DNA of 64,000 nucleotides, from NCBI GenBank assembly GCA_001828855.1, contig MHZT01000051.1:124001-188000 (forward strand), read 5' to 3'. Shown here piece by piece: positions 4,196-46,157 of this stretch; the first letter of the stretch is position 1, and each line of letters begins with the position of its first letter. Below the pieces are notes generated by a model, which saw only the letters and a list, made by a program, of their open reading frames with translations, was not told the origin of the DNA and made no database searches. The translations under genes were made by a program, and so were the position numbers. This stretch comes from Rhodobacterales bacterium RIFCSPHIGHO2_02_FULL_62_130. Its GTDB lineage: Bacteria > Pseudomonadota > Alphaproteobacteria > Rhodobacterales > Rhodobacteraceae.

Positions 4196-4232
4196 GCCTC
4201 CGGCGGGGATATTTTTGCAGAGAGGATCGGGG
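4196..4232 (+). repeat. Dispersed 3'-end repeat, copy 1 (CCGGCGGGGATATTT type)
   Basis: The 37-bp element begins GCCTCCGGCGGGGATATTT and ends AGAGGATCGGGG. It lies 75 bp past the stop of the RraB-like gene, in the same sense as that gene, and 12 bp before the end of convergent guaD. The copies at 36136 and 43132 are nearly identical. Confidence 0.8.
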
Positions 4233-4243
4233 GAAGGGCGCGC

Positions 4244-5557
4244 TTAGCGGCGCGGGCGGCTTTCTTTGCCGTTGATCCAAGTGGCGCGGATGGCGCGGTC
4301 GTCGCCCAGCATGATGGTGGGGAAGATTGCTTGCCAGATGGTTTCGGCGCGGCGGGTGGCCTGCTCGATGGCCGGGGTCGAGGCCAGATCGAGGATGGTC
4401 AGATCGGCCTCTAGCCCCGCTGCGATATTGCCGATGCGGTGTTCGGCATGCAGGGCGCGGGCCGAGCCGATGGTGGCCAGCCACCACAGTTGCGACGGAT
4501 GCAGGGCTTGGCCGCGCAGTTGCGCCACCTCGTAGGCGGCGGCCATGGTGTGTAGCATCGAAAAGCTGGAGCCGCCGCCGGTATCGGTGGCAAGGCCGAC
4601 GCGCAGGGATTGGGCAAGACCCATGTCGAACAGGCCGGAGCCGATGAAGGTGTTCGAGGTCGGGCAATGCACAAGGCTGGCCCCCGCCTCGCGCAAGCGG
4701 TCTTTTTCGCGCGGGGTCAGGTGGATGGCATGGCCATAGACGGCACCTTCGCGCAGCAGGCCTTGTGATTCATAGGTGTCCAGATAGTCGCGCGACTGCG
4801 GGAACAGGTCTTTGACCCAAGCGATTTCGTCCGTCTGCTCGGAGAGATGGGTCTGCATCAGGCAATCGGGGTATTCGTGCCAGAGCGCGCCCATGGCGGC
4901 GAGTTGTTCCGGCGTCGAAGTGGGGGAGAAGCGGGGCGTGATCACGTAGGACAGCCGGCCCTGCCCGTGCCATTTCTGCAGCAGGCGTTTGCTGTCGTCA
5001 TAAGCGGACTGGGCGGTATCGCGCAGGGCTTCGGGGGCGTTGCGGTCCATGCAGGTTTTGCCCGCAAAGGCGCGCAGGCCACGGGCTTGGGCGGCGGTGA
5101 AGAAGGCATCGACGGATTCGGGATGAATGGTGGCGTAGGAGCACATCGAGGTGGTGCCATGCGCCAAGGCCAGATCGAAATAGCGGTTGGCCACCTCATC
5201 GGCATAGGCGCGGTCGGCAAAGCGCATCTCTTCGGGGAAAGTGTAGCTGTTCAGCCAATCGATCAGGCGCTTGCCCCATGAGGCAATGATCGCGGTCTGG
5301 GGGTAATGCACATGGGCGTCAATAAAGCCTGCAGAAATAAGGCATTGGCCGTAATCGGTGATGCGGGCCTGCGGGTTGGCGGCGCGCAGGGCATCTGCGG
5401 GGCCGACCGCCGCGATCTTGCCGTTTTCGATCAGAACCGCGCCGTGGCGGTCATGGCGGGCGGCCTCGGGGCCAACCGCGAAGGGATCATCGGTAAAGGA
5501 CAGCACTTGCCCCAGAAGTAGATCGGCCATGGCTGCCCCCGTCATTTCATCGATCAT
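4244..5557 (-). CDS. guaD: Guanine deaminase
   Basis: Zinc amidohydrolase that deaminates guanine to xanthine in purine salvage and degradation. Motifs of the family are clear: FIDAHVHYPQT (HxH metal ligands), WLNSYTFPEE, ALAHGTTSMCSYATIHPES, MQTHLSEQTDEI (metal His), GHAIHLTPREKD and LATDTGGGSSFSML (catalytic/metal Asp). The 437-residue length is normal. The start could instead be the ATG at 5530 (MADLLLGQVLSFTDDPF), which is where homology would be expected to begin; neither has a strong ribosome site. It is a single gene here, with no xanthine dehydrogenase nearby. Confidence 0.92.
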   Translation of the reverse strand: MIDEMTGAAMADLLLGQVLSFTDDPFAVGPEAARHDRHGAVLIENGKIAAVGPADALRAANPQARITDYGQCLISAGFIDAHVHYPQTAIIASWGKRLIDWLNSYTFPEEMRFADRAYADEVANRYFDLALAHGTTSMCSYATIHPESVDAFFTAAQARGLRAFAGKTCMDRNAPEALRDTAQSAYDDSKRLLQKWHGQGRLSYVITPRFSPTSTPEQLAAMGALWHEYPDCLMQTHLSEQTDEIAWVKDLFPQSRDYLDTYESQGLLREGAVYGHAIHLTPREKDRLREAGASLVHCPTSNTFIGSGLFDMGLAQSLRVGLATDTGGGSSFSMLHTMAAAYEVAQLRGQALHPSQLWWLATIGSARALHAEHRIGNIAAGLEADLTILDLASTPAIEQATRRAETIWQAIFPTIMLGDDRAIRATWINGKESRPRR

Positions 5558-5650
5558 AGCTTATATGTTTGTGCCATTTCAGTAAAACAGCCCATGCCCC
5601 CTGTTTCCTTGAAACAGCTTTCGCTAAGGATGGGGCAATGGGGGCGCGGC

Positions 5651-7021
5651 ATGGCAGAAGATCTGGCAGTCATGGACGAGGATGAGGTTCACGCCGATCG
5701 CGTGGCCGCCATTCTGGACGCCGTTGAGGCGGGTGATGTCGCGCGGCTGACGCATTTGCTGGAGCCGCTGCACGCTGCCGATATTGCCGACTTGCTGGAG
5801 CAGATCGGGTCGGGTGACCGCAAGGCGCTGGTGGCGCTGTGGGCGGCGGAAATCGATGGCGAGTTGCTGTCGGAACTGGACGAATCGATCCGCGAGGAAG
5901 TGATCGAGGCGCTGCCGCGCGAAGTCGTGGCCGTGGCGATGCGCGAGCTGGATTCGGACGATGTCGTTGATATTCTTGAGGATCTTGATGCGCCGCAGCA
6001 GGGCATCATCCTTGAGGCGCTGGAAGATGCCGACCGCGTTGCGGTGGAACAGGCGCTGGCCTTTCCCGAGGAATCCGCTGGCCGTCTGATGCAGCGCGAG
6101 GTGGTTGTTTCGCCCGAACACTGGACGGTGGGCGAGGCGATTGACTATCTGCGCGGGGCCGAGCATCTGCCGGACCAGTTCTATCATGTGATCCTGACCG
6201 ATCCGCGCATGAAGCCTACGGGATATGTGACGCTGGGGCGGCTGCTGTCATCGCGGCGCGAGGTGCGGCTGAAGGATATTCTGGAAGACAGTTTCCGCAC
6301 GGTTCCGGCCACGGAATCCGAGGCCGATGTGGCCTATATGTTCAACCAGTATCACCTGATTTCCGCGCCGGTGGTCGACGGCTCGGGGCGGTTGGTGGGC
6401 GTGATTACCATTGATGACGCCATGAACGTGCTGGACGAGGAGCATGAGCAGGACATGCTGCGTCTGGCCGGTGTGGGCGACGAATCGAGCCTGTCGGACG
6501 GGGCTTTTGCGACGGCGCGGCAGCGGTTGCCTTGGCTGGTGGTGAATCTGTTCACGGCATCGATCAGTGCCTTTGTGATCTCGATGTTCGAGTCGACGAT
6601 TGCGGCCTTGGTGACGCTGGCGGCGCTGATGCCGATTGTGGCCTCGACGGGCGGGATCGCGGGGACGCAATCGCTGGCGGTGGCGGTGCGGGCGCTGGCG
6701 ACGCGCAGTCTGACTTCGGCCAACGCGCGGCGGGTGGTGCTGCGCGAATTGCTGGGGGGCTTGCTGAACGGCTGCGGTCTGGCGGTCATTCTGGGCGTGG
6801 CAAGTTTTGCCGTGTTCGGCGATTGGAAACTGGGCGTGGTGCTGGGCGTGGCGATGATCACCAATCAGGTGGTGGCGGGGCTGGGCGGCGTGCTGGTGCC
6901 GCTGACGCTGCACCGGTTCAAGCTTGATCCGGCGCTGGCCTCGGGGACGTTTGTGACGACCTTGACCGATGTGTTAGGATATTTGGCATTTCTGGGGCTG
7001 GCGAGTTGGTTTTTGCTATGA
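5651..7021 (+). CDS. mgtE: Magnesium transporter MgtE
   Basis: Inner-membrane Mg2+ channel/transporter. The N-terminal cytosolic MgtE_N superhelical domain (LLEPLHAADIADLLEQIG... through EESAGRLMQREVV) is followed by two CBS domains, about residues 130-250, containing ILTDPRMKPTGYVTLGRLL and YHLISAPVVDGSGRLVGVITIDDAM. The C-terminal five-helix pore starts at RLPWLVVNLFTASISAFVISMFE and includes PIVASTGGIAGTQSLAVAVRAL, a family signature. The frame is open to an ATG at 5594; I prefer 5651 (MAEDLAVMDEDEV) because the earlier residues look unconserved, but 5630 is also possible. The stop overlaps the next start (ATGA), so it is cotranscribed with the cyclo-ligase. Confidence 0.93.
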   Translation: MAEDLAVMDEDEVHADRVAAILDAVEAGDVARLTHLLEPLHAADIADLLEQIGSGDRKALVALWAAEIDGELLSELDESIREEVIEALPREVVAVAMRELDSDDVVDILEDLDAPQQGIILEALEDADRVAVEQALAFPEESAGRLMQREVVVSPEHWTVGEAIDYLRGAEHLPDQFYHVILTDPRMKPTGYVTLGRLLSSRREVRLKDILEDSFRTVPATESEADVAYMFNQYHLISAPVVDGSGRLVGVITIDDAMNVLDEEHEQDMLRLAGVGDESSLSDGAFATARQRLPWLVVNLFTASISAFVISMFESTIAALVTLAALMPIVASTGGIAGTQSLAVAVRALATRSLTSANARRVVLRELLGGLLNGCGLAVILGVASFAVFGDWKLGVVLGVAMITNQVVAGLGGVLVPLTLHRFKLDPALASGTFVTTLTDVLGYLAFLGLASWFLL

Positions 7022-7557
7022 TCGACAAGGGTGAAGCACGCAAAGCGGCCTTTGCCGCGCGCAAGGCGGCGTTTGCGGCGGGGCAGGGGCAGGCAGCAGA
7101 GTTGCTGGCCGATTTTCTGGCGGCATATCAAGGCAAGGCCTTGGCCGGATATATGGCGATGCGGACCGAGATTGATCCGCTGGCCGCGATGGTGGCGCAT
7201 CAGGGGCCGGTCTGCGTGCCGGTGATCATCGCCAATGGCCAGCCGCTGAAATTCCGCGAATGGTCGCCGGGGTGCCGGATGGAGATGGGGGCCTTTGGCG
7301 CGGAAATACCGGCGGAAGGGGCCTGGATCGAACCCGAGGTGCTGATCGTGCCGCTGGTGGGGTTCGATGCACGCGGCTACCGGCTGGGCTATGGCGGCGG
7401 GTTTTATGACCGCACGCTGGAAGGGTTACGGGCAAAGCGGCCAACGTTTGCTGTGGGATTTGCCTTTGACGCGCAGGAAATGCCGGAAGTGCCGATAGAC
7501 CAGTTCGATCAACGGCTTGACGCGATGGTGACGGAAAGCGGCCTGCGGTTGTTTTAA
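7018..7557 (+). CDS. 5-formyltetrahydrofolate cyclo-ligase
   Basis: ATP-dependent enzyme converting 5-formyl-THF to 5,10-methenyl-THF, a folate salvage step. The start at 7018 overlaps the mgtE stop by 4 bp (ATGA). The 179-residue protein begins MIDKGEARKAAFAARKAA. Family signatures are LAGYMAMRTEIDPLAAM, LIVPLVGFDARGYRLGYGGGFYDRTL (nucleotide-binding GYGGGFYD) and the C-terminal FDQRLDAMVTESGLRLF. Length is normal for the YgfA/FthC family. Confidence 0.93.
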   Translation: MIDKGEARKAAFAARKAAFAAGQGQAAELLADFLAAYQGKALAGYMAMRTEIDPLAAMVAHQGPVCVPVIIANGQPLKFREWSPGCRMEMGAFGAEIPAEGAWIEPEVLIVPLVGFDARGYRLGYGGGFYDRTLEGLRAKRPTFAVGFAFDAQEMPEVPIDQFDQRLDAMVTESGLRLF

Positions 7558-7607
7558 GGGCGCAAAGCTGCGATAGGGCGGGGCGCTTTGGGAATTGGGA
7601 CGCCAGC

Positions 7608-9725: not shown

Positions 9726-9784
9726 GGACGGACCCTTTGCAGGGGCGGGCGCTGTGGCCCGCCGATCAATGATCCGTCAATGCC

Positions 9785-11711: not shown

Positions 11712-11717
11712 CGCAGA

Positions 11718-21665: not shown

Positions 21666-21677
21666 GCGTGGGGCGGA

Positions 21678-21720
21678 GGGGGGCTGTCTGCCCCCCACGA
21701 CCCCTTCGCATGCGAAGGGG
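21678..21720 (+). terminator. Two adjacent hairpins after the lytic transglycosylase
   Basis: GGGGGGC-TGTCT-GCCCCCC at 21678-21696 is followed by a perfect 20-bp palindrome CCCCTTCGCATGCGAAGGGG at 21701-21720. This block precedes repeat copy 2. There is no U-tract after either hairpin, but the position between two convergent genes suits termination. Confidence 0.6.
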
Positions 21721-21757
21721 CCTCCCCCCGAGGATATTTGTGCAAAGAGGATGTCGG
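21721..21757 (+). repeat. Dispersed 3'-end repeat, copy 2 (GAGGATATTTGTGC type)
   Basis: CCTCCCCCCGAGGATATTTG followed by TGCAAAGAGGATGTCGG. It shares ATATTTGTGCAAAGAGGAT exactly with copy 4 (40391-40424). It lies 56 bp past the transglycosylase stop, in the same sense. Confidence 0.75.
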
Positions 21758-21762
21758 AGCGG

Positions 21763-35672: not shown

Positions 35673-36116
35673 GTGGCCAAGCCGATCTATGTTCTGAACG
35701 GACCCAACCTGAACCTGCTGGGCCTGCGCCAGCCGGAAATCTACGGCAAGGAAACGCTGGCGGATGTGGCGGCAAGCCTGTCGGATCTGGCCGATGATCT
35801 GGGCCTGTCGGTGCGCTGCCTGCAATCGAACCACGAAGGGCAGTTGATCGACTGGATTCACGAAGCGCGAACGGAAGGCGCGGGAATCATTATAAATCCG
35901 GGGGCTTACACGCATACATCGGTGGCGATTTTCGACGCGCTGAACGCCTTTGACGGGCCGGTGCTGGAGGTTCATATCTCGAATATCCACAAGCGCGAGG
36001 CGTTCCGGCATCATTCGTTTGTCTCGGCGCGGGCCGAAGGCGTGATCGCGGGGTTCGGCACGGAAGGCTATGTGTTGGCGCTGCGGCGGATGGCGAGCCT
36101 TTTGGGTAAACGCTGA
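35673..36116 (+). CDS. aroQ: 3-Dehydroquinate dehydratase, type II
   Basis: 147-residue dodecameric shikimate-pathway enzyme converting 3-dehydroquinate to 3-dehydroshikimate. The start is a GTG (AAAGGACGCATCCC-GTG). Motifs: [20 protein letters not shown] (catalytic Arg and Tyr loop), [35 protein letters not shown] and [17 protein letters not shown] (catalytic His). The gene is monocistronic; repeat copy 3 lies 20 bp past its stop. Confidence 0.96.
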
Positions 36117-36135
36117 GCCTTGGGGATGGGGCAGA

Positions 36136-36172
36136 GCCTCCGGCGGGGATATTTAAGCGAAGAGGATCGGGG
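36136..36172 (+). repeat. Dispersed 3'-end repeat, copy 3
   Basis: Begins GCCTCCGGCGGGGATATTT, then AAGCGAAGAGGATCGGGG. It lies 20 bp after the aroQ stop, in the sense of aroQ. It is open in the frame of the following ligase gene, so gene finders may absorb it into that protein (as SLRRGYLSEEDRG). Confidence 0.8.
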
Positions 36173-36203
36173 GAGCCGGTTTTCTTGGCATCCGTCTGCG
36201 CGG

Positions 36204-37349
36204 GTGTTTGATGGCGCGGGTGGGGAAGTGCTGCCGGTTGCTGCGTGCGAAGGCGGCGGGATTGCCGAGCGGCCTTCAGGGCTGGCGCTGGCGCGGGCTT
36301 TGGCAGCCGAGGGGCCGTTCCGGATCGGGGGAAGCGGCGCGATTTCCGCGGGCGATGTGCCGATGTTCGAGACGCTGACCTCGGGGTCAAGCGGCGCGGC
36401 GCGGCGGATCTGGCGGACGCAAGCGTCGTGGATTGCCAGTTTTGCGGTGAATGCGGGGCTGTTCGGGATCGGGCCGGGGGCCTGCGTGGCGGTACTGGGG
36501 CGGCTGGTTCATTCGCTGGCACTTTATGGTGCGCTGGAGGCAGTGCATCTGGGGGCCGAACTGCATCTGCTGGATGATCTGCGGCCGGATCGGCAGCGGG
36601 CGGCCTTGGCGGCGCGGCGGGTGGCGGTGCTATATGCAACACCCGCGCAGGTGCGGTTGCTGGTAGAGGCGGGCGGCACTGGCTTGCCCGATCTGCGCTT
36701 GATTCTGCTGGGCGGGTCCAAGCTGGATGATGCCTTGCGCGCGGCGGTGGCAGAGATGGCACCTATGGCCGATCTGCGCGAGTTTTACGGCGCGGCGGAG
36801 GCCAGTTTCATCACGTTGGCGGGGCCGGACAGTCCGCCCGCATCGGTTGGTGCGGCCTATCCGGGGGTTGAGATCGCGGTGCGCGATGCGGATGGGGCTG
36901 GGCTGGGCGAGATCTGGGTGCGCAGCCCCTATCTGTTTGTCAGTTATGCCGGAGAGGATCGCGGCTCGGCCCGATGGGATCAGGGTTGGCTTTCGGTGGG
37001 CGAGATTGGCCGGATTGAGGGCGGGCAGCTTTATCTGGCCGGGCGGGCGGGGCGCATGGTGACGGTGGCTGACCAGAACGTATTTCCCGAAGAGATTGAG
37101 GCGTTTCTGGCGGCCCAGACCGGCGTCACCCGCGTGGCTGTTCTGCCGCGCGCCGATGCATTGCGCGGTGTGGTTATGGTTGCGGTGGCGCAAGGTGATC
37201 CGGCCTGCGAGGCCGACCTGCTTGCGGCAGGGCGGCGGCAGTTCGGGCCGCTGAAAGCGCCGCGCGCGGTGATCTGGCGGCAGGATTGGCCGATGCTGGC
37301 CTCGGGCAAGACCGATCTGGCGGCTTTGGCCCGTGTGGTGGCGGGATGA
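36204..37349 (+). CDS. AMP-binding acyl-CoA ligase-like protein (YhfT-like)
   Basis: Adenylate-forming ligase with a shortened N-terminus. The phosphate loop is FETLTSGSSGAARRI. Further motifs are DLREFYGAAEASFITLAG (A5 region), GEIWVRSPYLFVSY, DQGWLSVGEIGRIEGGQLYLAGRAGRMVTVADQNVFPEEIEAFL (A7-A8, Asp and hinge) and the C-terminal LASGKTDLAAL with the A10 Lys. The frame is open from ATG 36120, but that start would run through repeat copy 3; I place the start at GTG 36204, with GTG 36228 also possible. It overlaps the thiolase start by 4 bp. An acyl-CoA ligase plus thiolase next to bioY recalls the yhfT-yhfS-bioY unit of Bacillus subtilis. The true substrate is unknown. Confidence 0.78.
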   Translation: MFDGAGGEVLPVAACEGGGIAERPSGLALARALAAEGPFRIGGSGAISAGDVPMFETLTSGSSGAARRIWRTQASWIASFAVNAGLFGIGPGACVAVLGRLVHSLALYGALEAVHLGAELHLLDDLRPDRQRAALAARRVAVLYATPAQVRLLVEAGGTGLPDLRLILLGGSKLDDALRAAVAEMAPMADLREFYGAAEASFITLAGPDSPPASVGAAYPGVEIAVRDADGAGLGEIWVRSPYLFVSYAGEDRGSARWDQGWLSVGEIGRIEGGQLYLAGRAGRMVTVADQNVFPEEIEAFLAAQTGVTRVAVLPRADALRGVVMVAVAQGDPACEADLLAAGRRQFGPLKAPRAVIWRQDWPMLASGKTDLAALARVVAG

Positions 37350-38425
37350 ACGCGATGATAATCGCGGCGCGGCGCACAGCGGTGGTGCCGCGTGGCGGTG
37401 CCTTTGCGCGGTTGTCGATTGAAGATCTGGCCGCCCCTGTCATTGCGGCGCTGTTGGCGGATGCCGGATTGGATGCCGTGGCGGTGGACGAGGTGATCGT
37501 CTCGAACGCTTTGGGCGCGGGTGGGAATCCTGCGCGGCGTGTGGCGCTGGCGGCTGGTCTGCCCGAACGGGTAGCGGGGCTGTCGCTGGATCGGCAATGC
37601 GCGGGGGGGTTGGATGCGGTGCTGCTGGCGCGGGCGTTGGTGGACAGCGGGGCAGCAAAGGTCGTGATTGCGGGCGGTGTGGAAAGCTATTCCCGCAGGC
37701 CACTGCGCTTTGCCACCGATCCGGATGGCGGGGCTGCGATTCCCTATGACCAGCCGCCCTTTACGCCTTGGCCGGATCGTGATCCCGATATGTCGCAGGC
37801 GGCAGAGGCTTTGGCGCTGCGGTTGCAGATATCGCGGGCGGAGCAGGACGCTTGGGCGGTGGACAGTCATCGCAAGGCAAAAGGGCTGCCCTTGGCCGAG
37901 ATTGTGCCGCTGGCAGGGCAGGCGCACGATGCCTTCGCGCGTGATCTGACGCCGGTGCTGGCAGCGCGGGCGAAACCGATTGCCGGGTCGATCACAGCGG
38001 CCAATGCCGCCGTTGCGGCGGATGCAGCAGCGTTTGTGGTGGTGGTGGCCGCTGACCTTGCGCGGGGACAGGGTTTGCGGATTGTCGGGGGCGCGACCTT
38101 GGGCGCCGATCCGGTCGAGCCGGGGCTGGCGCCGGTTCCGGCGATCCGGCAGGTGCTTGCGCGGGCGGGGATCGCGCCCTCCGATCTGGCGCGGGCCGAG
38201 GTGATGGAGGCCTATGCAGTGCAGGCGATGGCCTGCGTGCGTGCGGCGGGTCTGGACCCTGCGCGGATCAATCCCGAAGGCGGGGCTTTGGCCCGAGGCC
38301 ACCCGATCGGGGCCTCGGGCGCTCTTCTGGCGGTGCGCCTGTTCCACGGCTTGCAGCAAGGCTATGGCCTTGCTGCCATTGCCGCCGCCGGGGGCATTGG
38401 CACCGCGTTGCTGCTGCGGCGTTAG
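37346..38425 (+). CDS. Thiolase-family acetyl-CoA acyltransferase (YhfS-like)
   Basis: 359-residue thiolase starting MNAMIIAARRTAVVPRGGAF at the ATG overlapping the ligase stop. The nucleophilic Cys is C85 in LSLDRQCAGGLDAV; the second-half motifs MEAYAVQAMACVRAAG..INPEGGALARGHPIGASGALL carry the catalytic His and Gly-rich loop. It is shorter than typical PhaA/AtoB (about 390), mostly from shorter central loops. Its stop overlaps the bioY stop (TTAG at 38422-38425). Coupled translation with the ligase suggests joint action on one acyl-CoA. Confidence 0.85.
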   Translation: MNAMIIAARRTAVVPRGGAFARLSIEDLAAPVIAALLADAGLDAVAVDEVIVSNALGAGGNPARRVALAAGLPERVAGLSLDRQCAGGLDAVLLARALVDSGAAKVVIAGGVESYSRRPLRFATDPDGGAAIPYDQPPFTPWPDRDPDMSQAAEALALRLQISRAEQDAWAVDSHRKAKGLPLAEIVPLAGQAHDAFARDLTPVLAARAKPIAGSITAANAAVAADAAAFVVVVAADLARGQGLRIVGGATLGADPVEPGLAPVPAIRQVLARAGIAPSDLARAEVMEAYAVQAMACVRAAGLDPARINPEGGALARGHPIGASGALLAVRLFHGLQQGYGLAAIAAAGGIGTALLLRR

Positions 38426-38964
38426 GCGCGCGACAGCAGGGCTGCGGGGCGGGCGCGGGCGATGGCTTGGGTCACCAGACCGGCCAGAACCGCCTTGATC
38501 GTATCGCCGATCAGGTAGGGTGCGGCCAGAAGCGCCGCTTCGGGCAAGGTTTTCTCAAGCATGAAGGACATGCCGACCACGCCGATGGCATTCAGCAGCA
38601 AGATACCGCCCAGAATCGCGCCGACTGTCGCCGCCACGCCGACTTCGACCTTCCATGCCGAGGTGATCCAGCCCGTGACAAAAGCCGCAATCGGAAAGCC
38701 GATGATATAGCCGACAGTGGGCGAGGCCAGAACGGCAAAGCCGCCGCGACCGCCAGCCAGCAGCGGCAAACCGGCAATGGTCAGGAACAGGAACAGCAGC
38801 ACCGCAAGCGCCCCGTTGCGTGCCCCAAGCACCGTGCCGCACAGCATGATCCCCAGCGATTGCGCGGTGATCGGCACGCCGGTCGCCAGATCAATCTTGG
38901 GAACCAGCCCCAGCACCGCAATCAATGCCGCAAACAGGGCGATATGGGTAAGGTTCTTTTCCAT
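38422..38964 (-). CDS. bioY: Biotin transporter S-component BioY
   Basis: 180-residue membrane protein with six helices, the biotin-binding S component of an ECF transporter. Family signatures: GVPITAQSLGIMLCGTVLGARNGALAVLLFLFLTIAGLPLLAGGRGGFAVLASPTVGYIIGFPIAAFVTGWI and the later PYLIGDTIKAVLAGLV. The dedicated EcfT (BioN) and EcfA (BioM) genes lie upstream in the same direction, the bioMNY arrangement known from Rhodobacter capsulatus. Confidence 0.95.
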   Translation of the reverse strand: MEKNLTHIALFAALIAVLGLVPKIDLATGVPITAQSLGIMLCGTVLGARNGALAVLLFLFLTIAGLPLLAGGRGGFAVLASPTVGYIIGFPIAAFVTGWITSAWKVEVGVAATVGAILGGILLLNAIGVVGMSFMLEKTLPEAALLAAPYLIGDTIKAVLAGLVTQAIARARPAALLSRA

Positions 38965-38991
38965 GGCTTTCTCCTTGCCGTTTCAGCCCTA

Positions 38992-39591
38992 CTAGGCCGA
39001 ACCGCCCCGCGCGCGCAAGGCTTCTGCCACATGCTCGGCATCGTCCAGGGCCGCCAAGGTGGCGGGCATCAGCACCCGCCATCCGGCGCGGCGGGCCGAT
39101 CGCGCGCGCCAGCTTTGGCTGATTTGCTCGGCCCGGTCCTGCATCACCGGGATAAACCGGATCACCAGCGCCACCGCCAAGGCAAGTGTGCGCGGTGACA
39201 GGCCAAAGGCCGACAGCGGGCGGGCCAGACGTTCCAGCACGGTGATCATGTCGGAAAGCCGCGTGGTCATGGTGACGAAATTGGCCAGCGTCACGGCGGT
39301 CAGCATCCGCAGGATCACCACCGCCCCTCCGGACAGATCGCGCGACCACAGGTGCCACAGCGCCACGATCAGCACGAAGGGCCACAGCGGGCGCAGGTGG
39401 CGCAGGGCTGTCTTGGCAAAGATCGCGCCACCCGACAGCATCAGCAGAACGGCAGCGAGTGCGGCAGTGGCCAAGGGCAGGGGGCTGTTCAGGGCGAAAA
39501 GCCCTATGGTTGCCCCGCAAAGTGCGGTCAGCTTGACCGCCGCAGGCAGCCCGTGCGCCCATGTCTTAACCGGAGAGGTCAGTGTCAGCAT
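38992..39591 (-). CDS. bioN: ECF transporter transmembrane protein BioN (EcfT)
   Basis: 199-residue membrane coupling protein starting MLTLTSPVKTWAHGLPAAVKL at 39591, overlapping the bioM end by 26 bp. It has four to five helices and the EcfT coupling motifs with Ala-Arg-Gly cores: SWRARSARRAGWRVLMPATLAAL and AEHVAEALRARGG. In the bioMNY system it links the BioM ATPase to BioY. Confidence 0.92.
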   Translation of the reverse strand: MLTLTSPVKTWAHGLPAAVKLTALCGATIGLFALNSPLPLATAALAAVLLMLSGGAIFAKTALRHLRPLWPFVLIVALWHLWSRDLSGGAVVILRMLTAVTLANFVTMTTRLSDMITVLERLARPLSAFGLSPRTLALAVALVIRFIPVMQDRAEQISQSWRARSARRAGWRVLMPATLAALDDAEHVAEALRARGGSA

Positions 39592-40336
39592 CACGCTCCC
39601 CCAACTCGGCCATGCGGGCGGTGAAACCGGCCAGAACCGCAGCGGCCTGACCATCCGCCACAACGCGCCCGCCCTCGATCCAGATCACGCGGTCACAGCC
39701 GGAAACGGCTGCGGGATCATGGCTTATCGTGACCAGACGTTGCGGCAGCGCGGTTAGGCGTCGTGACAGGCGGGCCTGCGTCGGCAGGTCCAGTCCGGCA
39801 AATGGCTCATCCAGCAGGATGGTTTGCGGCTGCATCAGCAGCACCGCCAACAGGCACAGGTAATGGCGCTGGCCTTGGGACAGCGTATGCGTGGCCGCGC
39901 CCTCCCAATGCCTGCGGCCCTCGGCGGCCAGCAGGTCGCGCACCTTGGCGCGCGCGGCGGGTTCACTCAGGCCGATCTGGCGCAGGCCAAAGCCCAGTTC
40001 CTCGCCCACGGTCGGGAACAGGATCTGGTGGTCGGGGTTCTGGAACAGGATGCCCATACGGGCCAGCATCGCCTTGCGGTCGCGCGACGGGTCCAATCCG
40101 TCAACCCGAACCGTGCCGGACGAAGGCGCGATCAGCCCCGCCATCAGCCGCAGCAGCGTCGATTTCCCTGAACCATTGCGCCCGATGATGCCAATGCGCG
40201 GCTCGGTCAAATGCAGCGAGATCTCCGACAGGATCACCTTTCCGGCCACGGAATACCCCGCGCCGGTCAGCCTGATCCCCGTCTCGCCTACCCCTGCCAT
40301 CATCGCCCGCCAGCTTGTCCAATAGGGCAGGCTCAT
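39566..40336 (-). CDS. bioM: ECF transporter ATP-binding protein BioM (EcfA)
   Basis: ABC ATPase of about 256 residues. Walker A is IGIIGRNGSGKSTLLRLMAGL; Q-loop GILFQNPDHQILFPTVGEELGFGLRQIGL; signature HTLSQGQRHYLCLLAVLLM; Walker B TILLDEPFAGLDLPTQ; switch His TISHDP. I start at MSLPYW (40336); an ATG pair at 40300/40303 (MMAGVGETG) is a good alternative. An ATG at 40471 in frame would read through repeat copy 4 and is rejected. First gene of bioMNY. Confidence 0.92.
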   Translation of the reverse strand: MSLPYWTSWRAMMAGVGETGIRLTGAGYSVAGKVILSEISLHLTEPRIGIIGRNGSGKSTLLRLMAGLIAPSSGTVRVDGLDPSRDRKAMLARMGILFQNPDHQILFPTVGEELGFGLRQIGLSEPAARAKVRDLLAAEGRRHWEGAATHTLSQGQRHYLCLLAVLLMQPQTILLDEPFAGLDLPTQARLSRRLTALPQRLVTISHDPAAVSGCDRVIWIEGGRVVADGQAAAVLAGFTARMAELGERDADTDLSG

Positions 40337-40390
40337 ACCCTTAGCCCCCCTGAAAGCCAATCCGGCAAAAGAAAAAGAGGGCCGAAGCCC

Positions 40391-40424
40391 CCTTGATCCT
40401 CTTTGCACAAATATCCCACGGGGG
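40391..40424 (-). repeat. Dispersed 3'-end repeat, copy 4 (minus sense)
   Basis: In the minus sense it reads CCCCCGTGGGATATTTG followed by TGCAAAGAGGATCAAGG. It shares ATATTTGTGCAAAGAGGAT with copy 2. It lies about 47 bp past the gabT stop, in the sense of gabT, and upstream of bioM. Confidence 0.75.
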
Positions 40425-40439
40425 AGCGGCCTTGGCCGC

Positions 40440-40460
40440 GCGGGGGTGTGAAACCCCCGC
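40440..40460 (-). terminator. gabT terminator hairpin
   Basis: Perfect 8-bp stem GCGGGGGT / ACCCCCGC with a GTGAA loop, 11 bp past the gabT stop. There is no long U-tract; repeat copy 4 follows directly. Confidence 0.65.
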
Positions 40461-40470
40461 CTTTTTGCCA

Positions 40471-41748
40471 TTAGCCCTGACGCGCCGCCGCCACGGCAGC
40501 CTCCAGAATATCCATCGCCTCGGCGAAATGCGCGTCGGGAATGGTGATCGGCGCAAGGAAGCGCACGACGTTGCCGTATACGCCGCAGGTCAGCAGGATC
40601 AGCCCGCGCTTTTGCGCCTCGACCCGCACGCGGGTGGTGAAACCGGCGTCGGGTTCGTGGTTGGCGGGGTTTGCGAATTCGACCGCCACCATGAAACCGG
40701 GGCCGCGAATATCGCTGATTTCCGGCGTGACCGACCGCAAGGCTTCAAGCCGTTGCTTCAGGCGGCTGCCCAGTTCATTGGCGCGGTCGCACAGCTTTTC
40801 CTCGTCGATCACGTCCAGAACGGCGTTGGCCGCAGCGATACCGATCGGGTTGCCGCCATAGGTGCCGCCAAGACCGCCCGGATGGGCTGCATCCATCAGG
40901 CTGGCCTTGCCGGTCAGCGCCGCCAGCGGCAGACCACCGGCCAGACCCTTGGCCATGGTGGTGATGTCGGCGGCGATGCCGTAGCCTTCCATCGCGAACA
41001 TGGTGCCGGTGCGGGCAAAGCCGGTCTGCACCTCGTCGGCGATCATCACGATGCCATTGTCATCGCAGAGCTTGCGGATGGCTTTGACCAGATCTTTCGG
41101 AGCCGGATAAAAACCACCCTCGCCCTGCACAGGTTCAAAGATGATCGCGGCCACGCGGGTCGGGTCCAGATCGGCCTTGAACAGCTTGGTGATGCCCGCC
41201 ATGGCGTCATCGGTGGAAATGCCGTGAACCTCTTGCGGGAAGGGGACGTGATAGACGTCGGGCATCATCGCGCCGAAGCCCTTCTTGTAGGGATCAACTT
41301 TGCCGGTCAGCGACATACCCAAAAGGGTGCGGCCATGGAAGGCGCCGCCAAAGGCGATCACGGCATTGCGGCCCGTGGCAATCCGCGCGACTTTGATCGC
41401 GTTTTCCACAGCCTCGGCACCCGTGGTCACGAACACGGTCTTCTTCGGAAAATCGCCCGGAACGGCGGCGTTCAGACGTTCGGCCAGACGGACGTAGTTT
41501 TCGTAGGGCAGAACCTGATGGCAGGTGTGGGTGAATTTCGACAGTTGCTTGGACACCGCATCCATGACCTTGGGGTGGCAATGGCCGGTGTTGACCACGG
41601 CAATCCCCGCCGCAAAGTCGATATAGCGGTTGCCTTCGATGTCCCAGACTTCCGAGTTCAGGGCGCGATCGACATAAATCTGGGTCTGCACCCCGACCCC
41701 GCGCGAGATGCTCTCGGTCCGGCGGGCGGCGACTTCTGCGTTATTCAT
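40471..41748 (-). CDS. gabT: 4-Aminobutyrate aminotransferase (class III PLP enzyme)
   Basis: 425-residue omega-aminotransferase. The pyridoxal-binding region is VMIADEVQTGFARTGTMFAMEGYGIAADITTMAKGLAGGLPLAALTGKASLMDA, with the Asp and the Schiff-base Lys in MAKGLAGG. Other family parts: NRYIDFAAGIAVVNTGHCHPKV, VTTGAEAVENAIKVARIATGR, AFGGAFHGRTLLGMSLTGK and GGTYGGNPIGIAAANAVLDVI. Best match in pattern is GabT (GABA to succinate semialdehyde); other omega-amino acids are possible. It stands alone, without an adjacent gabD. Confidence 0.88.
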   Translation of the reverse strand: MNNAEVAARRTESISRGVGVQTQIYVDRALNSEVWDIEGNRYIDFAAGIAVVNTGHCHPKVMDAVSKQLSKFTHTCHQVLPYENYVRLAERLNAAVPGDFPKKTVFVTTGAEAVENAIKVARIATGRNAVIAFGGAFHGRTLLGMSLTGKVDPYKKGFGAMMPDVYHVPFPQEVHGISTDDAMAGITKLFKADLDPTRVAAIIFEPVQGEGGFYPAPKDLVKAIRKLCDDNGIVMIADEVQTGFARTGTMFAMEGYGIAADITTMAKGLAGGLPLAALTGKASLMDAAHPGGLGGTYGGNPIGIAAANAVLDVIDEEKLCDRANELGSRLKQRLEALRSVTPEISDIRGPGFMVAVEFANPANHEPDAGFTTRVRVEAQKRGLILLTCGVYGNVVRFLAPITIPDAHFAEAMDILEAAVAAARQG

Positions 41749-41950
41749 CGTGGTATCCTCCGAAGGCCCGTGGGCTTGGGCCGTGTCTGGTTCAGGGTTG
41801 AGGCTATTTGATCAAACTTTGCGGGCAGCTTCAATCGCGTTCCGCCGCAATTTGCAAGAATCACGGCAGGACGGCGGGAAATCCCTGTGGGATTCACCAA
41901 GCGTTAACCTTGCGCCGCCCAGACTGCGAATCGACAAAAGGGCAAAGCGC

Positions 41951-43105
41951 ATGGCAATGGGTTTGACATCCTTCCCCCGGCTTGGGGGCGACGATCCGGC
42001 GGACTGGTTGCGGCTGATCCGGTCGCGGCGTGTCGGGGCGGTGACGTTCCATCGCCTTCTGGCCGAACACGGATCGGTTGCGGCGGCGCTGGCGGCGCTG
42101 CCCGACGTGGCGCGCGGGGCGGGTGTCGAGAATTATGCGACCTGCCCGATTGAGGTTGTCCGGCATGAAATGGCGCAAGGGCGGTTAGCGGGGGCAAGGC
42201 TGTTGCATTGGGGGGGGCCGGATTATCCCGCATCTCTGATGGATCTGCCCGATGCACCGCCGGTGTTATGGGCGCTGGGCGATGTGGCACTGCTGGCGCG
42301 TCCGATGGTGGCAATGGTGGGTGCGCGCAATGCGTCGTCCTTGGGGCTGCGGATGGCGCGGCGGCTTTCGGAAGGGCTGGGGCAGGCGGGTCAGGTGGTG
42401 GTCTCGGGCCTTGCGCGCGGCATTGATGCCGAGGCACACCGAGCGGCACTGGACAGTGGCACTGTGGCGGTGATGGCGGGTGGGGTGGATGTGATCTATC
42501 CCGAGGAAAACGCCGAACTCGCAGCACAGATCGCGGCCAAGGGCTGTCGTGTGTCGGAACAACCGATGGGGTTGGTGCCGCAGGTCCGGCATTTCCCGCA
42601 GCGCAACCGTATCGTTTCGGGTCTGGCCCGCGCCGTGGTGGTGGTTGAGGCTGCGGCGCGGTCTGGCAGTCTGATCACGGCCCGCGCTGCCGCCGATCAG
42701 GGGCGCGAAGTGCTTGCGGTGCCGGGCCACCCGTTTGATGCCCGCGCGGCAGGGTGCAACATGCTGCTGCGCGATGGCGCGACGCTGGTGCGCGGCCCGC
42801 AGGATGTGCTGGAGGCGGTGGGCGTTTCGGCTGCGGCGGTGGTTTCGGCGCCGATGCCCGCCTACACACCCGACCCGATCCCCGATCCGTTGCCCGGCCC
42901 TGTGCCACTGCGCCGCCCGCTGTCGGATATAGCCTCGGTCCATAGCCAGATCCTGGCCCGTCTTGGCCCCAGCCCCTTGGCCGAAGACCAGTTGATCCGC
43001 GATCTGGCCATGCCCCCGGCGGCGCTGGCCCCCGCACTGATCGCACTGGAACTGGAAGGGCGGATACAGCGGCAATCGGGAGGGTTATTGTCGCGGGTCG
43101 ATTGA
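41951..43105 (+). CDS. dprA: DNA-processing protein DprA (Smf)
   Basis: 384-residue protein that loads RecA on incoming single-stranded DNA during transformation. An N-terminal SAM-like region (residues 1-70) precedes the Rossmann DprA core: PPVLWALGDVALLARPMVAMVGARNASSLGLRMARRL, VVSGLARGIDAEAHRAALDSGTVAVMAGGVDVIYPEEN, HFPQRNRIVSGLARAVVVVEAAARSGSLITARAAADQGREVLAVPGHPFDARAAGCNMLLRDGA. A C-terminal winged-helix DML1-like domain follows (PLAEDQLIRDLAMPPAALAPALIALELEGRIQRQSGG). ATG 41957 is an alternative start. It is followed by topA, a common pairing. Confidence 0.95.
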   Translation: MAMGLTSFPRLGGDDPADWLRLIRSRRVGAVTFHRLLAEHGSVAAALAALPDVARGAGVENYATCPIEVVRHEMAQGRLAGARLLHWGGPDYPASLMDLPDAPPVLWALGDVALLARPMVAMVGARNASSLGLRMARRLSEGLGQAGQVVVSGLARGIDAEAHRAALDSGTVAVMAGGVDVIYPEENAELAAQIAAKGCRVSEQPMGLVPQVRHFPQRNRIVSGLARAVVVVEAAARSGSLITARAAADQGREVLAVPGHPFDARAAGCNMLLRDGATLVRGPQDVLEAVGVSAAAVVSAPMPAYTPDPIPDPLPGPVPLRRPLSDIASVHSQILARLGPSPLAEDQLIRDLAMPPAALAPALIALELEGRIQRQSGGLLSRVD

Positions 43106-43131
43106 GGTTGTGCTTGGCATTGATGTCGGAT

Positions 43132-43168
43132 GCCTCCGGCGGGGATATTTAAGCAAAGAGGATCGGGG
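43132..43168 (+). repeat. Dispersed 3'-end repeat, copy 5
   Basis: Begins GCCTCCGGCGGGGATATTT, then AAGCAAAGAGGATCGGGG; it differs from copy 3 by one base. It lies 27 bp past the dprA stop, in the sense of dprA, and about 115 bp before topA. Confidence 0.8.
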
Positions 43169-43283
43169 GAAGGCACGGTTTTGACCCATCGGTTTGCCTG
43201 CGCCCAAATGCCCCCGTTGACAAGGCTTGCCGCTTCCGCCCATGTTGCCGCGCCGTCTGCGGTCCGGAAGCCAAGGAAATTTC

Positions 43284-46025
43284 ATGCCAGTCGTCGTTGT
43301 CGAATCTCCTGCCAAGGCCAAGACAATCAACAAATATTTGGGGTCGAACTATACGGTTCTTGCCTCTTACGGCCATGTGCGGGATTTGCCTGCCAAGGAC
43401 GGTTCGGTCGATACCGAACATGATTTTGCGATGACATGGGAAGTGGCGGCTGACAGCAAGAAGCATATTCGTGCCATCACCGAAGCCTTGAAAACCGATG
43501 ACGAGTTGATCCTTGCAACCGACCCCGACCGCGAGGGCGAGGCGATTTCGTGGCATTTGCAAGAGGCGCTGGCCAGCACTCTGAAGAAGGGCAAGAAGGT
43601 CAGCCGCGTGACCTTCAACGCGATCACCAAGGACGCCGTGACCGAGGCGATGAAAAATCCGCGTCAGGTGGATACGCCTTTGGTCGAGGCCTATCTGGCC
43701 CGCCGCGCGCTGGATTATCTGGTGGGCTTTACCCTGTCACCGGTGCTGTGGCGCAAACTGCCCGGCTCGCGTTCTGCTGGCCGTGTGCAATCGGTTTGCC
43801 TGCGTCTGATCGTCGAGCGCGAGATGGAGATTGAAGCTTTCCGCGCCCGCGAATTCTGGACCGTGACGGCCATGCTGCTGACCCCGCGCGGGCAGGAATT
43901 TTCGGCACGGCTGACGGTGCTGGGCGGCAAGAAGCTGGACAAATTCGACATTCCGACCGCCGAGGCGGCGGAATTGGCGGTGCAGGCTGTCACTTCCCGA
44001 ACCTTGGCGGTGCAATCTGTTGAGGCCAAGCCTGCCTCGCGCAACCCCTATCCGCCCTTCATGACCTCGACCCTGCAACAAGAGGCCAGCCGCAAATTCG
44101 GCATGGGCGCCAAGGCCTGCATGTCGGCAGCACAGCGTCTGTATGAGGCGGGGCATATCACCTATATGCGGACCGACGGCATCGACATGGCCCCCGAGGC
44201 CGTGGCGCAGGCGCGCGCCGAAATCGGGCGGCGGTTCGGGGACAAATACGTCCCCGACACCCCGCGCATCTACAAGAACAAGGCCAAGAACGCGCAAGAG
44301 GCGCATGAGTGCATCCGCCCGACGGATATGGCCGTCTCGCATGACGATCTGCGACTGGCCGAAGCCGATCAGCGCAAGCTTTATGAGCTGATCTGGAAGC
44401 GCACCCTCGCCAGCCAGATGGCGGCGGCGCGGATGGAGCGCACCGTCGTTGATATCGGCAGCGCGGATGGCCAGATCAGTCTGCGCGCCAACGGTCAGGT
44501 GCTTTTGTTCGATGGCTTCTTGCGCGTCTACGACGAGGGGCGCGACGACGAGGATGAGGACGAAGGCCGCCTGCCGCAGATCATGGCGGGCGAAACCGCT
44601 GCCCCGAAGAAGGGCGCGATGGAGCCTGCGTTCAAGAAGCAGGCCGATCAGGCCGGCAAGGATGATTTCGATCTGATCGACAGCGCGGTCTCGGTCCGCC
44701 GTGTCGAAGGTGCGGTGATCAGCCCCGATGGCGCGGTTCTGGCCAGCCAAAGCCACACCCAGCCGCCGCCGCGCTATACCGAAGCGACGCTGGTCAAGCG
44801 GATGGAAGAACTGGGCATCGGCCGCCCTTCGACCTATGCCTCGGTGCTGACCACGATTGTGGATCGCGAATATGTCCGCAAGGACAAGAACAGGCTGTTC
44901 CCCGAGGACAAGGGGCGGCTGGTCACGGCCTTCCTGACCAACTTCTTCCGCCGCTATGTCGAGTATGATTTCACCGCCGATCTCGAAAGCCAGCTTGACG
45001 ATGTTTCGGCGGGTGAGCGGGATTACAAAGAAGTCCTGTCGCGCTTCTGGCGGGATTTCGCGGCGGCTGTTGCGGAAACCGCTGATCTGCGGATTAGCGA
45101 AGTTCTTGACAAAATTGATGATTTCCTGTCGCCGCATCTTTATCCTGTGCGTGCGGATGGATCAGACCCGCGGTCTTGCCCGACCTGCGGTTCAGGCCGG
45201 CTGCACCTGAAAACGGCGCGATCGGGCGGGGCATTCATCGGCTGTGGCAACTACCCCGAATGTCGCTATACGCGCCCGATTTCCGGTGGCGACGAGGGTG
45301 GCTCGGTGGATGGGCGTGTGCTGGGAATTGACCCGGACGGGGTCGAGATCAGCCTGCGTGCGGGGCGCTTTGGTCCCTATGTGCAAAAGGGCGAGGCGAC
45401 AGAAGAGGCCCCGAAACCACCGCGCGCCAGCCTGCCCAAAGGCTGGGCGCAGGATGCCCTGACGCTGGAGCGTGCGATCGAGTTGTTGTCACTGCCGCGC
45501 CAGATCGGACCGCACCCTGAAGATGGCGCGATGGTCGAGGCTGCCATTGGCCGCTTTGGCCCTTATGTCAAACATGGCTCGGTCTATGCGAATATTCCCG
45601 ATGTCGAAGAGGTCTTCACCATCGGGATGAACCGCGCGGTTGAAGTGCTGGCTCTGAAGGCGGCAGGGCGTCGCGGATCGGCCACCGCAGTTGCCCCCCT
45701 GCGCGAATTGGGAGAACATCCCGATGGCGGGCCGGTGCAGGTGATGCCGGGGAAATACGGGCCGTATGTGAAATGGGCCAAGGTGAACGCAACCCTGCCC
45801 AAAGGGATTGAGCCGGAAGCTGTCACTCTGGAAGAAGCGCTTGCTTTGATTGCGGAAAAGGCGGGGAAATCCGGCAAAAAACCCGCAGCCAAGAAAGTTG
45901 CTGCCGAGAAAAAGCCCGCTGCGAAAAAGCCCGCTGCGAAGAAAGCAGCACCTAAAGTTGCCACCAAGACTGCTGCAGCCAAGAAAACCTCGGCAAAGAA
46001 GGCGGCGGAAGAACTGGAAGGCTGA
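43284..46025 (+). CDS. topA: DNA topoisomerase I
   Basis: 913-residue type IA topoisomerase that relaxes negative supercoils. It starts MPVVVVESPAKAKTINKYLG (Toprim) after AAGGAAA. Acidic Toprim triad: TDPDREGEAISWHL. The catalytic Tyr lies in YEAGHITYMRTDGIDM. The core includes EAHECIRPTDM and TLVKRMEELGIGRPSTYASVLTTI. A zinc-finger-like CPTCGSGRLHLKT..FIGCGNYPEC follows, then FGPYVKHG-type repeats. The last ~50 residues are a Lys/Ala-rich tail (KKPAAKKPAAKKAAPK) likely to bind DNA. Confidence 0.97.
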   Translation: MPVVVVESPAKAKTINKYLGSNYTVLASYGHVRDLPAKDGSVDTEHDFAMTWEVAADSKKHIRAITEALKTDDELILATDPDREGEAISWHLQEALASTLKKGKKVSRVTFNAITKDAVTEAMKNPRQVDTPLVEAYLARRALDYLVGFTLSPVLWRKLPGSRSAGRVQSVCLRLIVEREMEIEAFRAREFWTVTAMLLTPRGQEFSARLTVLGGKKLDKFDIPTAEAAELAVQAVTSRTLAVQSVEAKPASRNPYPPFMTSTLQQEASRKFGMGAKACMSAAQRLYEAGHITYMRTDGIDMAPEAVAQARAEIGRRFGDKYVPDTPRIYKNKAKNAQEAHECIRPTDMAVSHDDLRLAEADQRKLYELIWKRTLASQMAAARMERTVVDIGSADGQISLRANGQVLLFDGFLRVYDEGRDDEDEDEGRLPQIMAGETAAPKKGAMEPAFKKQADQAGKDDFDLIDSAVSVRRVEGAVISPDGAVLASQSHTQPPPRYTEATLVKRMEELGIGRPSTYASVLTTIVDREYVRKDKNRLFPEDKGRLVTAFLTNFFRRYVEYDFTADLESQLDDVSAGERDYKEVLSRFWRDFAAAVAETADLRISEVLDKIDDFLSPHLYPVRADGSDPRSCPTCGSGRLHLKTARSGGAFIGCGNYPECRYTRPISGGDEGGSVDGRVLGIDPDGVEISLRAGRFGPYVQKGEATEEAPKPPRASLPKGWAQDALTLERAIELLSLPRQIGPHPEDGAMVEAAIGRFGPYVKHGSVYANIPDVEEVFTIGMNRAVEVLALKAAGRRGSATAVAPLRELGEHPDGGPVQVMPGKYGPYVKWAKVNATLPKGIEPEAVTLEEALALIAEKAGKSGKKPAAKKVAAEKKPAAKKPAAKKAAPKVATKTAAAKKTSAKKAAEELEG

Positions 46026-46037
46026 CACACAGCAAAA

Positions 46038-46057
46038 GGTGCGTGAAATCACGCACC
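46038..46057 (+). terminator. topA 3' palindrome (GGTGCGTGA type)
   Basis: GGTGCGTGA-AA-TCACGCACC, 9-bp stem with a 2-nt spacer, 12 bp past the topA stop. The same palindrome recurs at 46932-46953. No U-tract follows, so termination here may depend on the next inverted repeat as well. Confidence 0.65.
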
Positions 46058-46067
46058 CTACCCTTTG

Positions 46068-46102
46068 GGCTTCATCTTGGCTCAAATACTCCCGCCGGAG
46101 GC
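46068..46102 (-). repeat. 3'-end repeat variant, left arm of inverted pair
   Basis: In the minus sense it reads GCCTCCGGCGGGAGTATTTG, then AGCCAAGATGAAGCC. It is the exact reverse complement of the right arm at 46123-46157. Confidence 0.9.
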
Positions 46103-46122
46103 ACCCGCTCTTGGCAATGGAA

Positions 46123-46157
46123 GCCTCCGGCGGGAGTATTTGAGCCAAGATGAAGCC
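46123..46157 (+). repeat. 3'-end repeat variant, right arm of inverted pair
   Basis: 35 bp, GCCTCCGGCGGGAGTATTTG followed by AGCCAAGATGAAGCC. With the left arm it forms a perfect 35-bp inverted repeat around a 20-bp spacer, between convergent topA and the gene at 46168. Transcribed from either side it would make a very stable hairpin and probably ends transcription in both directions. Confidence 0.9.

Follow-up and report, generated by a model that had tools for sequence, protein, structure and literature searches.

REP/BIME-like repeats at gene 3' ends of Rhodobacteraceae without a GTAG/CGTC tag, probably RNA 3'-boundary hairpins

Introduction

The bacterial interspersed mosaic elements (BIMEs) of Escherichia coli and the Rhizobium-specific intergenic mosaic element (RIME) combine several palindromic modules into mosaics located at the ends of genes, with sequences other than those described here, and E. 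coli BIMEs go with a transposase known as RAYT (repetitive extragenic palindromic-associated tyrosine transposase). In Bradyrhizobium, Br-REP1 and Br-REP2 were described as alphaproteobacterial repetitive extragenic palindromic (REP) repeats that lie in 3' untranslated regions (UTRs) and overlap small RNAs (PMC5082802). REPs and BIMEs have been grouped into GTAG and CGTC super-families (Di Nocera et al. 2013), and the main text of that study makes no mention of Rhodobacter, Roseobacter, Paracoccus, Ruegeria or Dinoroseobacter (PMC3733652). The present study concerns a short repeat, hereafter the unit, which occurs at six loci of a 64,000-nt stretch of Rhodobacterales bacterium RIFCSPHIGHO2_02_FULL_62_130. 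This whole stretch is the window (contig MHZT01000051.1, C51:124001-188000), and the genome comprises 4,970,223 bases in 53 contigs.

The unit represents, in our moderately confident reading, a family of REP/BIME-like 3'-end repeats of Rhodobacteraceae that have neither a GTAG/CGTC tag nor a RAYT and probably serve as RNA 3'-boundary hairpins. No description of the unit was found in the open-access literature, including by literal sequence searches, most subscription journals being outside the scope of the search.

Abundance and position relative to genes

Two patterns were used to follow the unit, a tail pattern (GGATATTTNNGCNAAGAGGAT) and a head pattern (GCCTCCGGCGGGNNTATTT). Within the window, each has five matches at up to 3 mismatches, compared with 0.02 and 0.40 expected from shuffles, respectively, and all the copies listed in the initial annotation are present. 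Across the whole genome, 134 tail-pattern and 217 head-pattern matches were found at up to 2 mismatches (0 and 0 in backward-read controls), and a profile scan of a 1.2-Mb sample, which underlies the counts below unless another sample is named, yielded 157 copies against 1 in the reversed sequence.

The copies are unevenly distributed among gap classes, for which the expected counts were set by intergenic length; genes were called by a codon-usage caller made for this analysis, and false small genes would blur the classes. Convergent gaps hold 72 copies (22.1 expected, p about 1e-21), divergent gaps 7 (46.9 expected, p about 1e-15) and tandem gaps 74 (84.0 expected), with 3 further copies in called coding sequence and 1 at a contig edge. 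For gaps of 80-300 bp, a copy is carried by 46 of 66 convergent, 2 of 136 divergent and 38 of 236 tandem gaps, and no copy was found in convergent gaps below 80 bp (0 of 112) or at 300 bp and above (0 of 6). The preference for gene 3' ends proposed in the initial annotation was therefore borne out in the 1.2-Mb sample as a convergent excess and a divergent deficit, and the same was seen in a related genome, G007. Among its 57 copies (800 kb, relaxed detector), 22 were convergent (7.9 expected), 2 divergent (16.2) and 31 tandem (30.9). As the two genomes point in the same direction, the 3'-end preference holds in two species; the heavy filling of convergent gaps was seen in one, the species of the window.

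Structure of the unit

The unit begins with a hairpin or a GC-rich head, continues with the core RRTATTT and ends with a purine-rich tail of about 14 nt, which marks the subtype. According to the position tables, most cores read GA-TATTT or AG-TATTT. In the 1.2-Mb sample, the GA core was found only with the tails T1 (NNGCRAAGAGGAT, 53 copies) or T3 (AACAGATGAAA, 15 copies), whereas T2 (CCAAGATGAA, 82 copies) was the sole tail of the AG core; 7 tails were unclassed. There are two head types, H (GCCTCCGGCGGG) and C, a C-run such as CCCCCGAGG. Each was found with both cores, indicating that the unit is a mosaic whose joint falls where the head meets the core.

C-type heads are preceded by hairpins. 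Of 40 C-head copies, 31 have a perfect stem of at least 5 bp that ends no more than 8 nt from the C-run, compared with 8% of shuffles. Among C-head singles, the 34 nt preceding the constant part contain a stem of at least 6 bp in 29 of 42; the rate is 7% in shuffles and 17% in 310 control windows downstream of other stops (C-head counts range from 40 to 46 since detectors differ). Outside the window genome, 31 of 47 C-head copies have a stem of at least 5 bp, the corresponding shuffles reaching 5-18% in sets with at least two copies and 30% in a one-copy set. The stem sequences vary among copies, for instance GCCATGTTGG(CAGG)CCAACATGGC versus GCCCTGTTGG(CAGG)CCAACAGGGC, so that the pairing is kept and the sequence is free.

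Nine hairpin types have 35 plus-strand occurrences, 28 of them intergenic and 25 no more than 60 bp away from a unit; the types were picked from units, and the count tests only for unit-free copies. The possibility that a constant tag was inserted beside pre-existing hairpins or terminators is not favoured, since the hairpin types tested are scarce without the unit. Pairing of the C-run with a GGGGG after tail T1 was noticed by eye in some copies, was inconsistent and was dropped.

Pairs and mosaic elements

Many copies are paired. Pairs of copies within 80 bp of each other number 29 in head-to-head, 11 in tail-to-tail and 1 in direct arrangement; 81 of the 157 copies are in pairs and 76 are single. 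The head-to-head spacer measures 18-21 bp in 25 of 26 pairs (regex detector) and differs in sequence among loci. Between-locus identity, determined for 19 pairs of the first sample, was 0.92 in arm heads, 0.73 in arm tails, 0.39-0.49 at spacer ends and 0.36 in flanks. When both arms belong to subtype B (n=11), they match each other at the variable positions 19-22 more often than shuffled arms do (0.82 vs 0.62, p=0.0006).

A spacer of 18-21 bp with free sequence might also be expected if the unit were a site in DNA. Gyrase or a nucleoid protein could, for instance, bind there and take up supercoils between convergent genes, and the pairs, spaced by about two helical turns, would be the form of high affinity. 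The convergent-gap enrichment and the largely indifferent orientation in the window genome are compatible with such a site. Nevertheless, stems whose pairing is kept but whose sequence is free are difficult to square with a sequence-reading protein, and about half of the copies (76 of 157) are single, which makes this explanation very unlikely.

Unit pairs are often accompanied by another module, an outward-pointing hairpin of the form GTAG-GGTGCGTG-(n)-CACGCACC. In 800 kb, 46 such hairpins were detected at up to 2 mismatches (0 in the reversed control), 39 of them no further than 170 bp from a unit, and in 11 groups two such hairpins enclose a unit pair. These nested arrangements form mosaic elements of about 150-170 bp. 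The GTAG hairpin has 126 exact copies genome-wide and is matched in 34 of the 198 genomes sampled from the family; in the window it occurs at 46038-46061 (minus strand) and 46928-46951 (plus strand). It has the anatomy given for GTAG REPs in the published survey (PMC3733652), namely the tag, a stem of 6-13 bp, a short loop and a high copy number. The GTAG tag belongs to this adjoining hairpin module and not to the unit. In addition, a second GTAG-tagged palindrome, GTAGG(T/G)CGGGGTTCACCCCG(A/C)C, was noticed by eye in several convergent gaps without a unit in the G000 sample, such as C34:259736-259908, C34:266566-266865 and C48:10471-10608.

Distribution and turnover in Rhodobacteraceae

The initial annotation pointed to similar sequence in other Rhodobacteraceae, and this was borne out. 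In 198 family genomes, each from a different genus, the H head plus core (up to 1 mismatch) was matched in 149; the window genome has the most copies, 211, and two genomes gave one match each in the backward control. The C-run form was matched in 171 of the 198, with up to 144 copies, and as its controls gave 0-3 matches per genome, genomes with 1-3 matches are indistinguishable from chance. By comparison, of 24 genomes from other families of the class, searched with two mismatches, 4 had one match each and 20 had none. Tail repertoires differ by species yet overlap: G007 carries AGAGCAAAT, AGTATGAAA and AATGTGAAA together with T1- and T3-like tails, G001 carries AATGTGAAA, G015 AAGAAGTGA and G024 ACAATGAAA.

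In two of three relatives compared, orthologous gaps share units more often than expected by chance. In the comparison of conserved gaps with G007, 3 were shared, 3 and 3 unshared and 109 empty (p=0.0014), and with G005, 3 were shared, 1 and 3 unshared and 55 empty (p=0.002). The same window-genome gaps recur in these tests and in that with G001, and the tests are therefore not independent. The detector missed at least one G007 copy (C34:174517), so sharing is underestimated; in that gap, seen by eye, the window genome has a C-AG-T2 copy and G007 a C-GA-T1-like copy. All of the shared gap comparisons (7 of 7) include a same-sense copy with another tail or core, and some relatives hold pairs, hence both senses, in shared gaps. 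Some orthologous gaps keep a copy while the subtype changes.

The gap between dprA and topA illustrates this turnover. It holds a single subtype A copy in the window genome and head-to-head pairs in G001, G005 and G007, with both arms AG in G001 and both GA in G005; G009 has a decayed one, and G004, G014 and G011 have none that exceed the threshold. Viewed by locus (L122 versus L123), the orthologous pair of this gap has AG in both arms in one species and GA in both in the other, a change matched on the two sides. A GTTGACA stretch lies 3' of the unit and upstream of topA (43169-43283 in the window) in 8 of 8 gaps, from the window genome and seven genus relatives, and suggests a topA promoter; a simple sigma-70 scan of 36000-46300 returned no promoter-like site. 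Downstream of topA, the profile found a unit within 400 bp in 5 of 80 loci from the best 80 named genomes. These 80 loci contain 27 profile matches in all (0 in the reversed control), and a relaxed detector gave 26, with 4 in the reversed control. Since tails differ across the family and several of the loci end soon after topA, the profile undercounts units after this gene.

Gains and losses between related species would also be produced by a decayed miniature inverted-repeat transposable element (MITE) or other selfish repeat, derived from an insertion sequence and without a role, which survives at 3' ends as insertions elsewhere are harmful. The arms indeed resemble terminal inverted repeats around a diverged spacer, and the step from 0 of 112 convergent gaps below 80 bp to 46 of 66 at 80-300 bp looks as if insertion had lengthened the gap. 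Against this, arms and hairpins are intact while spacers and flanks have diverged, and a change of subtype at one place in one sense is not simple decay. We consider an origin of this kind without any function improbable.

Terminators and gene-transfer-agent-like clusters

The unit is, as the initial annotation held, not an ordinary U-tract terminator. Its core offers TTT alone, and a C-run or GC-rich head stands between the stem and RRTATTT, whereas in intrinsic terminators the U-tract follows the stem immediately. Ordinary terminators were located by a simple scan for a hairpin plus T-run, with each convergent gap counted once per gene. They were found at 12 of 41 tandem gene ends with a unit and 27 of 184 without (p=0.04), and at 12 of 62 convergent gene ends with a unit and 19 of 58 without (p=0.10).

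The unit was also found in viral contigs. An exact motif scan of IMG/VR returned 62 contigs, a set selected for holding the motif, with terminase in 54 and a portal homologue in 55. These we take to be gene-transfer-agent-like clusters, from the gene order and an Rcc01698_C domain in one contig. Of their 71 copies, 44 lie sense and 15 antisense in the terminase-portal gap and 12 lie elsewhere; one-copy contigs dereplicated by element sequence show 32 sense and 8 antisense (p=0.0002). A second set was selected by portal similarity (the best 80 contigs, 72 of them assessable, at least 4 overlapping the first set). In it, 12 gaps have a sense unit, one of which is doubtful, and 1 has an antisense unit, or 10 and 1 with a stricter detector. 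Ordinary terminators in the same gaps numbered 9 sense and 7 antisense, and 65 coding windows from this set contained 0 units and 4 terminator-like sites. Unit and ordinary terminator were not significantly exclusive of each other (1 of 72 gaps with both, p=1). The unit thus recurs, mostly in sense, between terminase and portal at viral contig loci L246-L307 and L308-L387; in some other lineages this gap contains an ordinary hairpin plus T-run instead, and a ACCGTACGGT-like palindrome was seen by eye in several unit-free gaps of L308-L387.

These results bear on the idea of a dedicated family-specific transcription end signal, in which the hairpin, the C-run or GC head, RRTATTT and the tail are read by RNA polymerase and a lineage-specific factor with which the tail co-evolves. 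A hairpin of free sequence followed by a fixed 3' tract resembles terminator logic, and the placement at gene 3' ends, the sense bias in the terminase-portal gap (32:8, and 12:1 in the portal-similarity set) and the same-sense copy with another tail or core in 7 of 7 shared gap comparisons fit it. On the other side, the sense bias is weak in the window genome, the TATTT of the pair behind topA is buried in a stem, and ordinary terminators do not appear to be replaced: the tandem difference runs in the opposite direction, the convergent one is not significant, and no significant exclusivity was found in the terminase-portal gap among the best 80. A role of the unit as a replacement for U-tract terminators is accordingly not supported, terminators not being depleted at tandem ends, and the dedicated end signal appears unlikely as a whole. 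Also unlikely is a family-specific 3'-end system apart from U-tract and known Rho-dependent terminators, whose swappable hairpin, RRTATTT and purine tail would co-evolve by lineage with a hypothetical reading factor, and whose copies would overwrite each other without a RAYT.

Copies in the window

Copy 1 (4196-4232, plus) has the head GCCTCCGGCGGG, the core GATATTT and tail T1 (GCAGAGAGGATC), and lies in a convergent gap, 74 bp beyond the stop of a gene ending at 4121. Copy 3 (36136-36172, plus) and copy 5 (43132-43168, plus) have the same head, core and tail. The former is located in a tandem gap 19 bp past aroQ (dehydroquinase II), where G007 and G005 have a same-sense copy too but with a different tail; the latter is located in the dprA-topA gap, 26 bp beyond the dprA stop.

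Copy 2 (21721-21757, plus) combines the C-type head CCTCCCCCCGAGG with GATATTT and T1, in a convergent gap 55 bp from the stop of a transglycosylase SLT gene. It adjoins a hairpin at 21701-21720 (plus), CCCCTTCG(CATG)CGAAGGGG, which is a module of variable sequence, and an outer hairpin lies further 5' at 21678-21696 (plus), GGGGGGC(TGTCT)GCCCCCC. Copy 4 (40391-40425, minus), with the C-type head TCCCCCGTGG, GATATTT and T1, lies 43 bp past the stop of a class-III aminotransferase gene (40471-41748, minus). On the same strand, it adjoins the hairpin GCGGC(CAAG)GCCGC at 40426-40439, with a second hairpin 5' of it at 40440-40460, GCGGGGGT(TTCAC)ACCCCCGC. An ordinary terminator-like site, hairpin plus T-run, is found directly 3' of copy 4 at 40367-40394 (minus) and overlaps its last bases. 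Folded with their hairpins, copies 2 (21670-21762) and 4 are more stable than shuffles (z -2.1 and -3.6).

The sixth locus is a pair that starts 42 bp past topA (topA end 46025, arm start 46068). Its left arm (46068-46102, minus) and right arm (46123-46157, plus), both of subtype B (GAGTATTT, tail T2), are perfect inverted repeats of each other over 35 bp, head-to-head, with 20 bp of spacer between them (46103-46122), and a GTAG-tagged hairpin, GTAG-GGTGCGTG-ATTT-CACGCACC, flanks it on the left (46038-46061, minus). The segment 46030-46175 (146 nt) is predicted to fold with the 35-bp stem at -97.7 kcal/mol (z = -12). A search of the window with Rfam covariance models at the gathering score returned one tRNA and no match for the unit.

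Several details of the initial annotation change accordingly. It had placed the copies 20-100 bp past a stop; they do lie downstream of stops, at about 20-75 bp. The identity between copies 2 and 4, given as 19 bp, extends over 21 bp, and the head of these two is a C-run (CCCCCCGAGG and CCCCCGTGG) after a separate hairpin in place of GCCTCCGGCGGG. The topA pair, regarded as a variant in which the rest of the sequence is replaced, instead represents another subtype, with the register unchanged (GCCTCCGGCGGG-AG-TATTT-GAGCCAAGATGAAG). Of the gene names, Pfam supports the transglycosylase SLT, dehydroquinase II, class-III aminotransferase, DprA and topoisomerase I, and the gene before copy 1, called RraB-like, has no Pfam match at E<=0.001.

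Interpretation

Judged by the place of the unit and by its kept pairing, an RNA 3'-boundary role is the most likely one. The unit would lie in 3' UTRs, and its RNA may fold into a hairpin, of 33-35 bp for well-matched pairs. Such a hairpin could mark the 3' boundary by slowing the read-through of RNA polymerase, by shielding the transcript against 3' exonucleases, or both. The copies presumably spread and overwrite each other by a route without a RAYT encoded in this genome. Among the three roles offered in the initial annotation, a transcription end signal, an mRNA 3'-processing or stability mark and a REP-like mobile repeat, the last fits best. Dimers, mosaics, 3' location and hairpins agree with it; a REP transposase was not found in the genome, and the unit lacks the GTAG/CGTC tag.

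Several observations weigh against this reading. Orientation is one. The initial annotation gave every single copy the sense of its gene. This is so for the five single copies of the window, but tandem-gap singles of the 1.2-Mb sample are weakly biased, 29 sense to 17 antisense (p=0.10), which is odd for a pure RNA signal and reduces sense orientation in this genome to a tendency. By subtype, the ratio is 19:7 for A (p=0.03) and 10:9 for B, the A orientation having looked stronger (16:3) in a smaller 800-kb sample, and C-head tandem singles have 16 sense and 12 antisense. Folding is another: the predicted folds of copies 1, 3 and 5 are not more stable than those of shuffles (z +1.0, -0.6 and +1.0), and H-head singles are poor hairpins, with a stem of at least 6 bp in 4 of 30 against 6% of shuffles. 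Among pairs, mixed A/B arms are common (8 of 19) and pair imperfectly, and the whole-arm similarity of the eleven B-B pairs is not significant (0.909 vs 0.890, p=0.072). The core-tail link fails in G005, where the GA core also occurs with the T2-like AAGATGAAA. In G007, the convergent gaps of 80-300 bp with a unit number 15 of 62, and the conserved-gap comparison with G001 gave 1 shared, 5 and 2 unshared and 45 empty gaps (p=0.31). The 3'-end location itself could reflect mere tolerance.

The REP likeness has its own difficulties, as no GTAG or CGTC end is conserved on the unit in the position tables of either subtype, and PF01797, the Y1 transposase domain of RAYTs, has 0 matches in the window genome, 5 of 14 control genomes being positive. 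Across the family, 18 of 198 genomes have a PF01797 match; ten Y1 loci from family genomes carry neither the unit nor the GTAG hairpin, and a Y1 match was found in just one, G171, of the 15 genomes with at least 4 GTAG hairpins. A RAYT-driven REP was thus rejected for this genome, for want of a Y1 transposase and given the weak overlap in the family, within a transposase search limited to Y1.

If the reading of the unit as a REP/BIME-like 3'-boundary repeat is true, one repeat family fills most mid-sized convergent gaps of this genome sample (46 of 66, against 15 of 62 in the relative) and is matched in the majority of the genera sampled from a large family of bacteria. The recurrence between terminase and portal would then be a defined site for testing an effect on expression.

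Comparison with known systems

Like U-tract terminators, such as the UpsM terminator described for Rhodobacter sphaeroides (PMC5089854), the unit may place a GC hairpin at the transcript end, and ordinary U-tract terminators share some gaps with it. Unlike them, it has no U-tract directly after the stem and has a conserved downstream tail. Br-REP1 and Br-REP2 (PMC5082802) come from another order and are likened to the unit by their description, not by sequence.

The closest likeness is to the GTAG and CGTC super-families of REPs and BIMEs, as characterized by Di Nocera et al. (PMC3733652). According to that account, these are short palindromic intergenic units of high copy number, which occur singly, head-to-head and tail-to-tail, mainly in convergent and unidirectional gaps, with complementary changes in stems and several families per genome. 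The unit is likewise a palindromic, intergenic, high-copy repeat that forms dimers and is placed in convergent and unidirectional gaps, H-head singles being weakly palindromic. The same account gives REPs a conserved hairpin and a 4-nt tag; in the unit, the hairpin of C-head copies is free and a 3' part of about 30 nt is constant. The unit is also without a GTAG or CGTC tag, and the window genome without a RAYT. As neither the REP tag nor the RAYT link was found, the unit was not filed as a GTAG or CGTC REP. If the reading holds, a REP-like family persists in this genome without the transposase thought to spread REPs, which makes its persistence and homogenisation testable.

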